64,000 bases of DNA from Ruminococcus sp. Its GTDB lineage: Bacteria; Bacillota; Clostridia; Oscillospirales; Ruminococcaceae. The stretch lies in assembly GCA_021205185.1 (NCBI GenBank), contig JAJPYB010000008.1, positions 1 through 64,000 of the forward strand. Direction: 5' to 3'. Made by a program: the position numbers and the translations under genes. Positions 8,926 to 62,076 of the stretch are shown here, in pieces. Positions within the stretch are counted from its first letter, which is position 1; every line of letters begins with the position of its first letter. Below the pieces are notes generated by a model. That model made no database searches. It was not told the DNA's origin and worked only from the letters and a program-made list of their open reading frames with translations.

Positions 8926-8971
8926 AAATTTACAATTACCTCTTGAATTTAACCCTATTGTACACTATAAT
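8926..8971 (+). promoter_or_regulatory. Promoter and candidate operator for the DUF6076 gene
   Basis: TTGAAT (8943-8948), a 17-bp spacer and TATAAT (8966-8971) make a near-consensus promoter. An inverted repeat TTCAAGA (8926-8932) / TCTTGAA (8941-8947) overlaps the -35 box and lies between the divergent transcripts, so it may be an operator that controls both. Confidence 0.65.
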
Positions 8972-20088: not shown

Positions 20089-20137
20089 GAGCTATCTGCC
20101 CCCAGCTGGCTTGCATGAAAAAACCGCTAAAATCCGT

Positions 20138-20270
20138 GGGGATAATAAGAGGGATAATATGGGGATAATATGGGGATAATTAAAAACTTTCTCTAAAAAT
20201 ATTCGATGATCCTATTGACTGTGAATTTTAATTATGCTATATTATCCCCGTGATAATTTTAATTATCCCT
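20138..20270. repeat. GGGGATAAT repeats upstream of rep
   Basis: Direct copies of (G)GGGATAAT occur at 20138, 20151, 20161 and 20172, with inverted ATTATCCC copies at 20241 and 20262. They surround the rep promoter, so they could bind Rep or a repressor. Confidence 0.65.
20215..20243 (+). promoter_or_regulatory. Promoter of rep
   Basis: TTGACT (20215-20220), 17-bp spacer, TATATT (20238-20243). The -10 box runs into an inverted ATTATCCCC repeat, consistent with autoregulation. Confidence 0.75.
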
Positions 20271-20289
20271 ATAGTAAAGGAGGCTGCAT

Positions 20290-43727: not shown

Positions 43728-44837
43728 CTACTCCGATTTAAGTCTTACAGGAAGTACAAGGAAGGTATAACCTTCGCCATTAACAGGAACTATCTTCATC
43801 GGCAGGTTTCCGCCGTTCATCAAAAGCTTTACCTTATCCTCTTCAATTACCTTTAGAGGGTCAAGCAAAAACTTGCAGTTAAAGCCTATTTCCATCATTG
43901 GTCCTGTTATATCAGCTGAAATCTTATCGTTTATTTTACCAATAGATGTTACACAGCTGATAGACAAAGCGCCGTTATTGAAAATACATCTTACAGGACT
44001 CTTGATTCTCTCATTGATTAATATTGAAGCACGCTCTAAGCTATTTATAAACTCTTTTCTGTCAATTATTACCTCTGTATTGCCAGAGTCAGGAATAGAA
44101 CCCTTGTAGTTATGAAATTCTCCTTCAATAAGACGAGAATAAACTGTATAGCCGGAAAACTCAAAGATAACGTGCTTTCTTGAAATGAAAATCTTTGCTG
44201 TAAGCTCATCGTCGTCCTTTAATAGCTTTGAAATTTCATAAAGAGCCTTTGACGGAATAATCATCTTGTTTTGTCCATCATACTTTATAGCTTCGTCACG
44301 AACTGCTAGTCTGTATCCGTCGATTGCAACTACTGTCAGCTTATTGTTGTCAATTTCAAAAAGCTCACCCTTTAAAACAGGCTTAGCGTCAGTCTGAGCA
44401 ACGGCAAATATAGTCTGATTTATCATACTTTTAAGTACAGGCTGAGAAATTTCAAATACCTCAGCGTCATCGCTTACAGTAGGAAGAGTTGGAAACTCAA
44501 CGGCATTCATATACATAATTGTATATTCAGTATCTCCGCCATAAACCTTAATTTGCTGGTTATCAATTACTTCAAGAGTTACGTCCTCGCTGTTCATCTT
44601 CTTTATCATTTCACCGAGAAGACGAGCGTTTACTACAAACTGTCCCGTGCCGATAGAAGAAGCGGAAATTTCCGTTTGAATACCGATTTCAAGGTCGTAG
44701 CCCGTAAGCTCGACAGCTGTTTTCTTTACGTTTATTTTTATACCCTCTAATACCAGCAGCGTTGATTTTTCAAAAACTGCCTTTGATACGTTTACGATAG
44801 CTTCATAAAGCTCGTTTGATTTACAGATAATTGTCAT
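43728..44837 (-). CDS. dnaN: DNA polymerase III beta subunit (sliding clamp)
   Basis: A 369-residue clamp of normal length with three similar domains. Visible segments include LEGIKINVKKTAVELTGYDL, VVAIDGYRLAVRDEAIKYDG and a C-terminal MKIVPVNGEGYTFLVLPVRL. It encircles DNA and tethers the polymerase and repair enzymes. It lies 470 bp downstream of dnaA, separated by the TGTTTAAA repeat cluster. The start has AAAGGACATTAACA upstream. Confidence 0.95.
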   Translation of the reverse strand: MTIICKSNELYEAIVNVSKAVFEKSTLLVLEGIKINVKKTAVELTGYDLEIGIQTEISASSIGTGQFVVNARLLGEMIKKMNSEDVTLEVIDNQQIKVYGGDTEYTIMYMNAVEFPTLPTVSDDAEVFEISQPVLKSMINQTIFAVAQTDAKPVLKGELFEIDNNKLTVVAIDGYRLAVRDEAIKYDGQNKMIIPSKALYEISKLLKDDDELTAKIFISRKHVIFEFSGYTVYSRLIEGEFHNYKGSIPDSGNTEVIIDRKEFINSLERASILINERIKSPVRCIFNNGALSISCVTSIGKINDKISADITGPMMEIGFNCKFLLDPLKVIEEDKVKLLMNGGNLPMKIVPVNGEGYTFLVLPVRLKSE

Positions 44838-45305
44838 TGTTAATGTCCTTTCAAAATAATGAATTTAAATTATATAAAGCCTCAGGTTTGTTTAATTTCA
44901 GAAAAACGAAATTTTTTCTGAAATAAATAAGTAAAATATATAAAATAAATAGCAGTAGTAATAGAGGCTGTTTAAACTATTAAAAAGCTCAAAAATTGGC
45001 TTGTACAAAGGCTTTGCGACTAAACAAAATTTCAACGCTCTTTAAACTGAAATGTTTACAGATTTTTGTTTTTTAACAGCTTTCAAACTTTTTAAACAGC
45101 GGTGTGCTGTTGAAATATAAAAAGTCTGTTTAAAAATGTCGGCTGCCAGAAGTCAATCGTGATGTTTCAACAAAATTTTTAAATTGGCGGTTTTTTGTTA
45201 CAGTTTATATTGTTTAAAGAGATGAGAATGTTACGCTAATAAAAGACTTTCAGCAAATTTTAAATTGTTTAGAAATTTGTTTAAAGTGTTTAAAACCAGT
45301 ATTAG
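44838..45305. other. dnaA-dnaN spacer with TGTTTAAA cluster, candidate oriC
   Basis: AT-rich spacer without a gene. TGTTTAAA occurs exactly at 44969, 45127, 45211, 45278 and 45287 and as its complement at 45091. Near matches are at 45041 (complement of AGTTTAAA), 45053 (TGTTTACA) and 45266 (TGTTTAGA). I saw no TTATCCACA box. This is where Firmicutes often carry DnaA boxes, so the cluster may be this organism's initiator site. Confidence 0.55.
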
Positions 45306-46688
45306 TTATGTTTCCTTGAGATTTTTAATAATGTCGTTTACAGTTTCCTTAAAGTCTGCATTTTTATCCATCATCTTTTTTACATCCTGATAGTTAAGAG
45401 TAATGGTTGCGTGGTTTCGATTTATCTCCTCGCCAATCTGCGCATAGCTTAAGCCCTTAATCTCACGGACAACGTAAATAAAAACCTTTCTTGCAAGTGA
45501 AATAGGCGCACATCTGTTAGGCGAGCGTATTTCCTCAGGAGTTACGTTAAAGGCAGTCGACACGTCATTCATAATTCTGTCAACGGTAATATCCGCAGGA
45601 GTTGAAGACACAGCATTCTCACGAATAATTCGCTGAACCATAGAGTATGTAACAGGCTCGTTGGTAAACATTGTAAGCGCTTTAATCTTATTGACAACGC
45701 CCTCAAGACTACGGATATTATTCTTAATCTTCTCAGCAATAAGCTTTGCAACAGAGTCTGACATACTGATATCTAAAAGCTCAGCCTTGCGCTTGACGAT
45801 AGCGAATCTTGTTTCAAAATCAGGCGGCTGAATATCTGCCTGAACGCCCTTTACAAAGCGGCTTCTGATTCTGTCGTCAAGCTTTTGAATCTTAGAAGGC
45901 GAAATATCACTGGTTAAAACTATTTGCTTGCCATTATTATAAAGCTCATTAAAGGTATGGAAAAACTCTTCCTGAGTGCTTTCCTTTCCGGCAATAAACT
46001 GAACATCGTCCATAAGCAAAAAGTCGCAGCTTCTGTACTTATCCTGAAACGGCGTAGTATTCTTATCCAAAATAGCCTTTACAAGCTCATTTGTAAAAGC
46101 TTCGCCTGTAACGTACAAAATGTTAAGCTCAGGGTGGTCGTGCCGAACCTTATGCTCGATAGCTTTAAGAAGATGAGTTTTACCAAGTCCTGAATCTCCG
46201 TAGATAAATAACGGATTAAAAATATCTGCGTTATTGAGCTTATTATCGTCGTTCTTACCTGCAACGGCATAGCAAAAAGCATATGCCAGCTCATTTGATT
46301 TTCCCTTGATAAAATTATCAAACGTAAGAGAATACTTTCCACTTTCCATAGCGCGCTCGAGCTTCTTTTCATTTTCCAGAACCTGATTAAACTTTAAAGC
46401 GTCGTTTTCTGCATTTGCATATCTTGGATCAAGCGTCGGATCAACCGTAATATCAATCTCAACATCAAAGCCCATTGCTTCAAAAAATCCACGCTTCATA
46501 ACGTCAAGATAAAAGTCATAAATCATTTGTTTTGAAAACTCGCTCGGCGAAGCTAAATACGCCGTCTTATTTTCAAAGCCTCTTGGCTGTAAGACGTCTA
46601 TCCACCTCTTATAGCCAATATCGCTTACGCCGTTATCCTCTTTACAATATTTTTTTACGTTTTCCAATACCTCTGAAAACGAGTCCAT
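45306..46688 (-). CDS. dnaA: Chromosomal replication initiator DnaA
   Basis: A 460-residue AAA+ initiator. The start MDSFSEVLENVKKYCKEDNG lies behind AAAGGAGG (12 bp); an upstream frame to 46757 is not supported. Walker A is GDSGLGKTHLL (164-174), Walker B is FLLMDDVQFIAGK (223-235), and the arginine finger region is DDRIRSRFVKG. In domain IV the usual GRDHTTV signature reads NRNHATI (423-429), so the Asp and first Thr that contact DnaA boxes in E. coli are Asn and Ala here. It heads the minus-strand replication operon. Confidence 0.96.
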   Translation of the reverse strand: MDSFSEVLENVKKYCKEDNGVSDIGYKRWIDVLQPRGFENKTAYLASPSEFSKQMIYDFYLDVMKRGFFEAMGFDVEIDITVDPTLDPRYANAENDALKFNQVLENEKKLERAMESGKYSLTFDNFIKGKSNELAYAFCYAVAGKNDDNKLNNADIFNPLFIYGDSGLGKTHLLKAIEHKVRHDHPELNILYVTGEAFTNELVKAILDKNTTPFQDKYRSCDFLLMDDVQFIAGKESTQEEFFHTFNELYNNGKQIVLTSDISPSKIQKLDDRIRSRFVKGVQADIQPPDFETRFAIVKRKAELLDISMSDSVAKLIAEKIKNNIRSLEGVVNKIKALTMFTNEPVTYSMVQRIIRENAVSSTPADITVDRIMNDVSTAFNVTPEEIRSPNRCAPISLARKVFIYVVREIKGLSYAQIGEEINRNHATITLNYQDVKKMMDKNADFKETVNDIIKNLKET

Positions 46689-47856: not shown

Positions 47857-47971
47857 AACCTAGTGACTTTAGATGAAGTCGCCTGCCTTAGTGGCACTTA
47901 AATTAACGCTGAAAAATATTGAAATAGCTTTGGAAAATCCAAAGAACTATTTATGGAGGGAGGAATCCGTA

Positions 47972-60894: not shown

Positions 60895-62076
60895 TTAATA
60901 GCTGTAACCATAGTAGAGATCAAACATTTCATCTGACAGCTCGCCATAGTCGATAAACGTGCTAACTACGCTTGTCAAATCCATTACGCACCAATCGCCG
61001 TCATATCTGATAACCGTCAGCGTTTCTGAATCGCTTCCGTTATCGTCGGCGCCTGTTGTATAGGTCGATACGTCAACTTCATAACCTGCCTCGCCTTTTA
61101 GTCCGTACTCGTCGTATTCTGCCACCTCGTCCTCGCTCATTTTGCGAACCTCGAGAATCTCGTATTCTACGTCGATATCAGGATACTGCTGCTTGTAAAG
61201 ACTAGCCATTCTTTGGCAGCCGAGCTTAAAGGTCTGAATGTCGCTTCCTTCGCCCTGCTCAACATAAGCTATCAAGGCTGTATCTCCTAGCGCTTCACAG
61301 AAGTCATCATATTCAAAATCCTCCATTGCTTCGTAATAAGCTTCAACTGCGTCGTCATATCCGCCCGACGAGAAGAAAATGAAGTAAATTAAAATTCCTG
61401 CGCCGATTAAAAGAAGCAAGATTACTATTAAAATTGTGATAAGTAAGCCGTTGCCCTTTTTCTTTGTCGGAGCTTGAGCAGGCACGCCATAGCTGCCGTT
61501 TGGATCTGCCTGATAATAAGGCTGACCCTGCGGGTACGGCTGACTCGGCTGCTGATAAGGCTGTCCCTGTGGATAAGGCTGATCCGGCTGCCCGTAAGCA
61601 GCGTTCGCCTGTGTGTTCATATCTGCTGCTGTCTGTGTCGGCTCAGCGTTTGACGGCGTATACGCTACAAACGGACTTGGATCCGACGAGCGTGGCGTGT
61701 TGTAAGGATTCTTTTCGTTTACAACAGGCTCAGGCTGTGGAGCAGGCTCAGGAACTGGCTGAGCAGCTGGCTCAACAATTGGCTCAGGTGCAGGCTCTGA
61801 CTGAACTGATTCGGGAACAGGCTCTACTACAGACTGTGAAATTGGCTCAACAACAGGCTCTGCTATAGGTTCAGGTTGAACTGGCTGGATTGGCTCTGCG
61901 ACCGGTTCCTGCTGAACTACAGGTTCTGCGACAGGTTCTGGAGCAGGCTCTACTACTGGCGCTGGAATCGGCTGTGGTGCAGGCTCGACAGCCTTCATTA
62001 CTTTAGCGCCGCAGGAAGTGCAGAAGTTAGCGCCCTCTGAAAGCGGTGTACCGCAGTTTGCACAAAATTTTGACAT
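60895..62076 (-). CDS. Zinc-ribbon membrane protein with Pro/Val/Glu repeats
   Basis: A 393-residue protein of unknown function. It starts with a zinc ribbon (FCANCGTPLSEGANFCTSCG), then about 110 residues of repeated P-x-P-E-P-V/I-x-E-P units, a Pro/Gln/Tyr-rich stretch (QPYPQGQPYQQP), one membrane helix (LLITILIVILLLLIGAGILI) and an extracytoplasmic domain that resembles the smaller paralogue at 62352-63095. No signal peptide is present, so the N terminus should be inside. ATG 62076 follows GGGGGATATT; a longer frame to 62121 lacks a ribosome site. The repeats are of low complexity. Confidence 0.8.
   Translation of the reverse strand: MSKFCANCGTPLSEGANFCTSCGAKVMKAVEPAPQPIPAPVVEPAPEPVAEPVVQQEPVAEPIQPVQPEPIAEPVVEPISQSVVEPVPESVQSEPAPEPIVEPAAQPVPEPAPQPEPVVNEKNPYNTPRSSDPSPFVAYTPSNAEPTQTAADMNTQANAAYGQPDQPYPQGQPYQQPSQPYPQGQPYYQADPNGSYGVPAQAPTKKKGNGLLITILIVILLLLIGAGILIYFIFFSSGGYDDAVEAYYEAMEDFEYDDFCEALGDTALIAYVEQGEGSDIQTFKLGCQRMASLYKQQYPDIDVEYEILEVRKMSEDEVAEYDEYGLKGEAGYEVDVSTYTTGADDNGSDSETLTVIRYDGDWCVMDLTSVVSTFIDYGELSDEMFDLYYGYSY

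Follow-up and report, generated by a model that had tools for sequence, protein, structure and literature searches.

A putative variant DnaA box between dnaA and dnaN in a clade of uncultured Clostridia, apparently reached stepwise alongside changes in DnaA domain IV

Introduction

Few regulatory words of bacteria are as conserved as the DnaA box, which is nearly the same in most species. In the account of a 2015 review, no analysed origin lay more than two mismatches from TTATCCACA, with the exception of that of T. maritima (PMC4285127). Base contacts of E. coli DnaA have been placed at residues 399, 423, 432-435 and 438-439; the recognition helix reads TnCACA, and Arg399 reads TTA in the minor groove (PMC5043019, PMC5742627). 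Position 5 of the box is described as unimportant for the DnaA proteins of E. coli and M. tuberculosis (PMC5043019). A motif proposed for mollicutes, TT(T/A)TCAACA, is rare in those genomes and was doubted by the review that discusses it (PMC3322544). In B. subtilis, the basal unwinding system (boxes 6/7, a GC stretch and DnaA-trios; PMC8287927, PMC10721633) lies between dnaA and dnaN, the same place as the locus described here.

Methods

The window is the whole stretch of 64,000 nucleotides that was analysed. The collection includes 15 genomes of its genus, all 15 with a DnaA match, and these fall into two clades. Clade A comprises the genome of the window (G000) together with G007, G001, G010 and G013 (loci L001-L005), and its DnaA carries RNHATI; clade B comprises ten genomes (L006-L015) whose DnaA carries RDHSTM. 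Sister genera are represented by 14 loci (L121-L134), and the remainder stands for the rest of the family. The family set includes 60 loci taken from the best-ranked family matches and leans to closer relatives, because loci were chosen from the top of the match list. In G137, the DnaA match (C54:166-1491) contains one internal TAA.

Counts of residues and of box position 6 left out L031 and L033 (on the same contigs as L006 and L017), L107, L108, L110, loci with spacers of 100 bp or less, and the order-level loci L021 and L028, which gives a family set of 85 loci. Shuffle-based spacer counts kept L021 and L028, so that the family comprises 87 loci. One genome is present twice (L038 and L189) in the residue, position-5 and paired residue-438 counts. 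Spacer words were counted on both strands, with dinucleotide shuffles as background. Fisher tests count sites as independent although the genomes are related. Residues are numbered as in E. coli by alignment with 1J1V, which we take to start at residue 374. This numbering agrees with RDHT at 432-435 in PMC5043019 and with Arg399.

Results

The origin locus

The window has a classical origin layout, in which dnaA and then dnaN lie on the minus strand and the genes to the right of dnaA run the opposite way. ORF directions were computed, and the divergent genes on that side appear from their sequence to be rpmH and rnpA. DnaA scored 421 bits against TIGR00362 (cut-off 343.9) and matched Bac_DnaA_C with an E value of 1.1e-15; it is a full-length initiator, with both the AAA+ domain and the C-terminal DnaA HTH present.

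45306..46688, minus strand: dnaA (460 aa), whose domain IV carries altered DNA-recognition residues (TIGR00362, Bac_DnaA_C)
44838..45305: dnaA-dnaN spacer, putative oriC (box enrichment, trios)
43728..44837, minus strand: dnaN, adjoining dnaA across the spacer

Cumulative GC skew has a local minimum at 47860, beside dnaA; over the 224 kb examined it is lowest at 8965. Canonical boxes at a skew minimum elsewhere, which the preliminary description had named as evidence against a changed box, did not come up in this 224 kb skew profile and a tandem-pair count: tandem TTWTNCACA pairs numbered 2 in the window's own genome versus 1 for the reversed control. To the left of the origin, positions 8350-35932 hold a mostly plus-strand gene run with reversed GC skew, unlike the genes nearer dnaA, which run on the minus strand. 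The left edge of this block is the lowest skew point, and the block is perhaps an inversion or an acquired segment. Three copies of TTATCCCCA, one mismatch from TTATCCACA, lie within 43 bp (20137-20179) in the gap before an ORF at 20278.

A repeated word in place of the canonical box

Six exact copies of TGTTTAAA/TTTAAACA lie within 44969-45294 (326 bp) of the spacer, and seven in the whole window. The preliminary description had counted six exact and three near copies in about 330 bp; its exact count stands, and there are more than three near copies.

44969..44976, minus strand: TTTAAACA beside the DnaA-trios, in the place of B. subtilis DnaA box 7
45091..45098, plus strand: TTTAAACA, oriented opposite to the other exact copies
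45127..45134, minus strand: TTTAAACA
45211..45218, minus strand: TTTAAACA
45278..45285, minus strand: TTTAAACA
45287..45294, minus strand: TTTAAACA, 9 bp from the neighbouring copy
45108..45115, minus strand: TTTCAACA, most frequent among the forms found elsewhere in the family
45165..45172, plus strand: TTTCAACA
45071..45078, plus strand: TTTTAACA, near copy
45266, 45041 and 45053: further near copies TCTAAACA, TTTAAACT and TGTAAACA, respectively

As a 9-mer, the word begins with T in three of the six exact copies, and three copies of TGTTTAAAA lie in the spacer. Not one of 5000 dinucleotide shuffles of the spacer reached six copies of TGTTTAAA (mean 0.33, maximum 4). Some 8-mer or other reached six copies in 355 of 2000 shuffles, so that a single AT-rich spacer is not decisive alone. 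The enrichment test on five genomes is the stronger one: in the pooled clade A spacers, TTTAAACA was the most over-represented 8-mer, with 30 copies versus 1.74 expected and a maximum of 6 in 300 shuffles, and 24 copies were still present without the near-copy locus L002. Against these counts, chance repetition of words in an AT-rich spacer is scarcely credible.

The canonical box was absent from the spacer (44838-45305), in which TTATCCACA was not found even with one mismatch, as had been described; its only exact copy in the window is at 61568. The clade A 9-mer TTTTAAACA has three mismatches to TTATCCACA (positions 3, 5 and 6) rather than at most two, and lacks the C at position 6 (C:A 0:20 in clade A). 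No TTTAAACA was found in the 1.5 kb upstream of dnaA. A genome-wide count of TGTTTAAAA, proposed in the preliminary description, gave 80 versus 58 for the reversed control. This over-abundance is too weak to serve as support, and the count weighs against the box reading because the word is common in the genome.

DnaA-trios beside the box

A repeat resembling the DnaA-trios described in PMC8287927 adjoins the last box.

44944..44964, minus strand: DnaA-trio-like repeat CTATTACTACTGCTATTTATT, separated from the last box by four bases (GCCT) and continuing into AT-rich DNA

The order in the window is TTTAAACA-GCCT-CTATTACTACTG; GCCT is followed by CTATTACTACTGCTATT, the complement of 3'-GAT-5' trios, and then by AT-rich DNA. 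All ten clade B loci carry TTTTAAACA (8) or TTTTTAACA (2) four bases before CTA trios. Within clade A, TTTAAACA stands beside the trios in only two of five loci (L001 and L002, which are near copies); in L005 the place is taken by TCTAAACA, and L003 and L004 show no clear trio at this point. A box within 16 bp of at least three trios was thus found, with the new box, in the window and in 10/10 clade B loci, and is less clear in L003-L005.

The box series across relatives

Spacer counts (expected in brackets) were as follows.

Rest of the family, 87 loci: TTTCAACA 198 (8.5), TTTCCACA 115 (4.1), TTTAAACA 41 (10.6)
Sister genera, 14 loci: TTTCAACA 39 (1.8), TTTAAACA 22 (2.9), TTTCCACA 0
Clade B, 10 loci: TTTTAACA 23 (2.5), TTTAAACA 15 (2.5), TTTCAACA 10 (0.4), TTTCCACA 0
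Clade A, 5 loci: TTTAAACA 30 (2.0, or 1.74 with the larger number of shuffles), TTTTAACA 4 (2.0), TTTCAACA 3 (0.4), TTTCCACA 0

At position 6 of TTWTxyACA, C:A was 59:35 in 31 loci with Bacillus-like Leu-Pro-type DnaA, 114:187 in the 85 other family loci, 1:43 in the 14 sister loci and 1:46 in clade B. At oriC, A versus C plus T at position 5 was 30:7 in clade A and 15:33 in clade B (p = 7.6e-6, related sites counted as independent). From the spacer counts, position 6 therefore appears to have gone from C or A to A alone, and position 5 then to A in clade A. Read along the series, the box changed stepwise, with C6 lost in the genus and sister genera and A5 coming to dominate mainly in clade A.

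Under the main rival, the ordinary box would remain the target of DnaA and A at positions 5 and 6 would be no more than tolerated, supplied by AT-biased mutation, with incidental protein changes. It draws on the report that the DnaA proteins of E. coli and M. tuberculosis do not read position 5 specifically (PMC5043019), on the clade B spacers (18% GC), in which A, T and C all occur at position 5, and on TTTCAACA being common already throughout the family beside TTTCCACA. Against it, A exceeds T by 30:4 in clade A versus 15:23 in clade B (p = 2.3e-5), and C6 is lost also in sister spacers of 32% GC that keep C5, which likewise removes GC content alone as the cause at position 6. Such drift may account for position 5 in clade B; it is less likely to explain why clade A prefers A to T or why the sister genera lack C6. 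As an account of the whole series we regard it as unlikely.

DnaA domain IV

The preliminary description had stated that RNHATI takes the place of E. coli RDHTTV, and alignment with 1J1V confirmed this.

45402..45419, minus strand: codons of RNHATI, start of the recognition helix (E. coli 432-437), from alignment with 1J1V and the predicted helix
45396..45401, minus strand: codons of the Thr438/Leu439 equivalents, which on correlative evidence may read box position 6
45441..45446, minus strand: codons of the Tyr422/Ala423 equivalents (E. coli Leu422/Pro423), from alignment with 1J1V

Domain IV was predicted as an intact, regular HTH (mean pLDDT 89.9) whose helix starts at the His434 equivalent, and the Arg399 equivalent is kept in clades A and B and in the sister loci. 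The genus and sister genera have in common Thr438 (mostly Val in the family, 75/85), Ile, Leu or Thr at 439 (versus Tyr in 84/85 family loci), Tyr or Phe at 422, an HTH turn shorter by one residue and, usually, Asn or Ser (one His) at 398, versus Lys in 76/85. Clade A alone has Ala423, Ala435 and Ile437 together with Asn433.

Co-evolution of box and initiator had been proposed from the replacement of Asp433 and Thr435 together with the spacer cluster. What stands is that the box and the DNA-reading part of DnaA change on the same stretch of the tree; the tie of these two replacements to the new box is not borne out in that form. Residue 435 is Ser rather than Thr already in 77 of 85 other family loci, and seven family loci with Ala435 and Asp433 have C5 17, A5 3 and T5 2. 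Asn433 occurs in 10 of the 14 sister loci, whose TTTxAACA sites have C5 25, A5 20, G 1 and T 1, and the ten same-genus loci with Asp433/Ser435 are already without canonical boxes. Asn433 was accordingly rejected as sole driver: it is neither needed for loss of the canonical box nor enough for dominance of A5. A partial effect is possible, as within the sister genera A5 makes up 20/47 sites in Asn433 loci versus 2/19 in Asp433 loci (p = 0.019, sites counted as independent).

Loci with a polar residue 438 and at least two boxes are free of C6 in 26 of 28 cases, versus 23 of 124 others, and L027, outside the clade, likewise combines Thr438 with an absence of C6. When phylogeny was taken into account, the association with residue 438 was not significant (3 independent pairs, median p 0.5), and the link of Thr438 to position 6 is a lead only, because it comes from just three independent contrasts. 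The better causal candidates, on this correlative evidence, are Thr438 for position 6 and Ala423, Asn433, Ala435 and Ile437 jointly for position 5. The shorter HTH turn was rejected as driver of A6: M. tuberculosis DnaA (3PVP) also has the short turn and its box is TTGTCCACA (PMC4285127), and other short-turn loci keep C6 (L041 CC 2, L058 CC 3, L077 CC 3).

DnaA and DnaN trees

In trees of DnaA (domains I-III) and DnaN, clades A and B are each one-sided and are joined with the sister loci. The DnaN tree does not unite the sister loci in one clade. In the DnaA tree the group also takes in the long row L155, whose place is unsure because of its long branch. With domain IV left out, the DnaA stem of genus, sisters and L155 measures 0.88 changes per column (support 100). 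For genus and sisters in the DnaN tree the stem is 0.051 (support 85); because that tree has a branch of 0.43 a little deeper, by some nodes, the contrast is not a clean rate ratio. A long DnaA stem where the DnaN stem is short speaks against incidental drift and hints at a special change in DnaA on this stem, the row sets of the two trees being different. L155 (G140) itself is a distant family DnaA with Asn438, a short turn and 12 TTWTCAACA boxes in its spacer.

Clusters outside oriC

Tandem TGTTKAAA pairs numbered 10 in the window's own genome versus 1 for the reversed control, and 102 versus 15 across the 15 genus genomes. The exact 12-bp tandem (the 9-mer plus 3 bp) gave 75 matches in 44 of 100 family genomes versus 1 for the control, and among same-strand copies no spacing is more frequent than 12 bp (33 times in the cluster loci and 10 times in the oriC spacers of clades A and B). 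Two intergenic clusters are conserved in the genus, each in 14 of 15 genomes.

G000 C8:86924-86997: cluster 1, by a SpoU-type methylase gene
G000 C11:97348-97523: cluster 2, flanked by GH94 and Fe-S protein genes at a distance of about 52 kb from dnaA

The SpoU methylase adjoins cluster 1 in 3/4 clade A and 6/10 clade B loci. Beside cluster 2, the Fe-S gene is present in 2/5 clade A and 9/9 clade B loci and GH94 in 5/5 clade A loci; GH94 is the shared neighbour that ties the G000 cluster to the remaining clade A loci, and the Fe-S gene ties it to clade B. At both clusters together, A5 versus C5 plus T5 was 30:17 in clade A and 20:66 in clade B (p = 5.6e-6, related sites counted as independent). 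At matching sites, TGTTGAAA and TGTTTAAA (C5/A5) swap in both directions, as drift would allow. The new word stands in for the canonical box at these conserved clusters as well as in the spacer, which upholds the earlier suggestion of a replacement box.

Clusters away from dnaA could also mean that TTTAAACA is the site of another DNA-binding protein, the true DnaA boxes being weak or elsewhere. This is very unlikely, given that across the family, within this one spacer, the motif passes gradually into TTTCCACA by way of TTTCAACA, that it holds the box place beside the trios in clade B and the window, and that B. subtilis DnaA also binds several other chromosomal regions (PMC4447404).

Neighbours of predicted clusters are genes for SpoU methylase/DUF6062, Fe-S protein/GH94 and MraZ. 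In four clade B genomes, groups of three TTTCAACA lie beside an ORF (approximately L239 597-720, L240 624-740, L241 690-800 and L242 700-796), and the ORF beside the L240 group matches MraZ; DnaA control of the division gene cluster is a possibility there. The tandem matches at C1:61469, C9:94768 and C9:99489 of the own genome were left out of the clusters, the latter two (L237, L238) because both lie inside open frames. A candidate group at C3:118382-119136 was dropped as partly coding, and L221 and L222 were rejected as partly coding or with too few boxes.

Discussion

The computed observations concern the motif itself, how far it is enriched, where it lies and that it recurs at conserved sites, as well as the residue changes and the tree. 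We infer that DnaA binds TTTAAACA from the place by the trios, the continuity with TTTCCACA through the family and the clusters elsewhere. We give a probability of about 0.78 to the reading that TTTAAACA (9-mer TTTTAAACA) is the DnaA box of this clade, reached stepwise while DnaA changed too. The described unimportance of position 5 in E. coli and M. tuberculosis counts against it, as do the two-way swaps at matching sites.

Under this reading, domain IV would bind the TTTAAACA boxes between dnaA and dnaN; from the trio-side box, a DnaA filament would spread onto the DnaA-trios, and the AT-rich DNA toward dnaN would open, by analogy with the B. subtilis basal unwinding system. The outer clusters probably bind DnaA too, for titration or for control of neighbouring genes. 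In a first step, C6 would have been lost in the ancestor of the genus and sister genera, with Thr438 and other domain IV changes; in a second, position 5 would have become mainly A in this clade, with Ala423, Asn433, Ala435 and Ile437.

A stronger version gives the residues an ordered causal role: the change of 438 from a hydrophobic residue to Thr moved position 6 from C to A, the later 423/433/435/437 set made the usually unread position 5 A, and oriC and the scattered clusters were rewritten together. We put this forward tentatively, at somewhat below even odds. Should it be true, the intermediates that survive would offer a natural key to the recognition code of DnaA.

If confirmed, the variant box would show an essential initiator changing its word at many sites together. 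With intermediates alive in the sister genera, residue-to-base rules could then be tested one step at a time. It would also be a warning that boxes of this kind are overlooked in origin prediction, where finders assume TTATCCACA within one or two mismatches. In the open-licence literature searched, no description of TTTTAAACA as a DnaA box was found, nor anything for DnaA box with Faecalibacterium and oriC; among the matches listed there for TGTTTAAA, TTTAAACA or TGTTGAAAA with DnaA, none was on DnaA. The same literature contains one relevant mention of TTTTCAACA with DnaA.

Among the systems described in the cited accounts, that of B. subtilis is alike in its box, short spacer, CTA (3'-GAT) trios and AT-rich DNA, recognised here from sequence; here, unlike there, the box is TTTAAACA instead of TTATCCACA and the region upstream of dnaA lacks it. 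The DnaA-bound regions of B. subtilis outside oriC (PMC4447404) are also intergenic box groups; those reported here are predicted and carry the new box. T. maritima DnaA (2Z4R) likewise has residues other than Asp/Thr at 433/435 (NRSHPVV), an HTH turn shorter by one residue and a divergent box, but its 12-mer AAACCTACCACC (PMC4285127) is unlike TTTTAAACA in sequence and length. In Epsilonproteobacteria with T5 boxes, position 5 matters too and DnaA differs at 435 and 438-439, but the boxes keep the core TTCAC, unlike TTTTAAACA (PMC5043019). The proposed mollicute motif has A6, like the family-wide form here, and its position 5 stays C (PMC3322544). The new box has the 9-mer length, the T-rich start and the ACA end in common with TTWTNCACA, the box known from E. 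coli, B. subtilis and C. difficile (PMC4285127, PMC7561715), and its DnaA keeps the Arg399 equivalent. As judged from these comparisons, this is a known DnaA-box system with a variant box, and a real, consistent shift in a very conserved recognition system.
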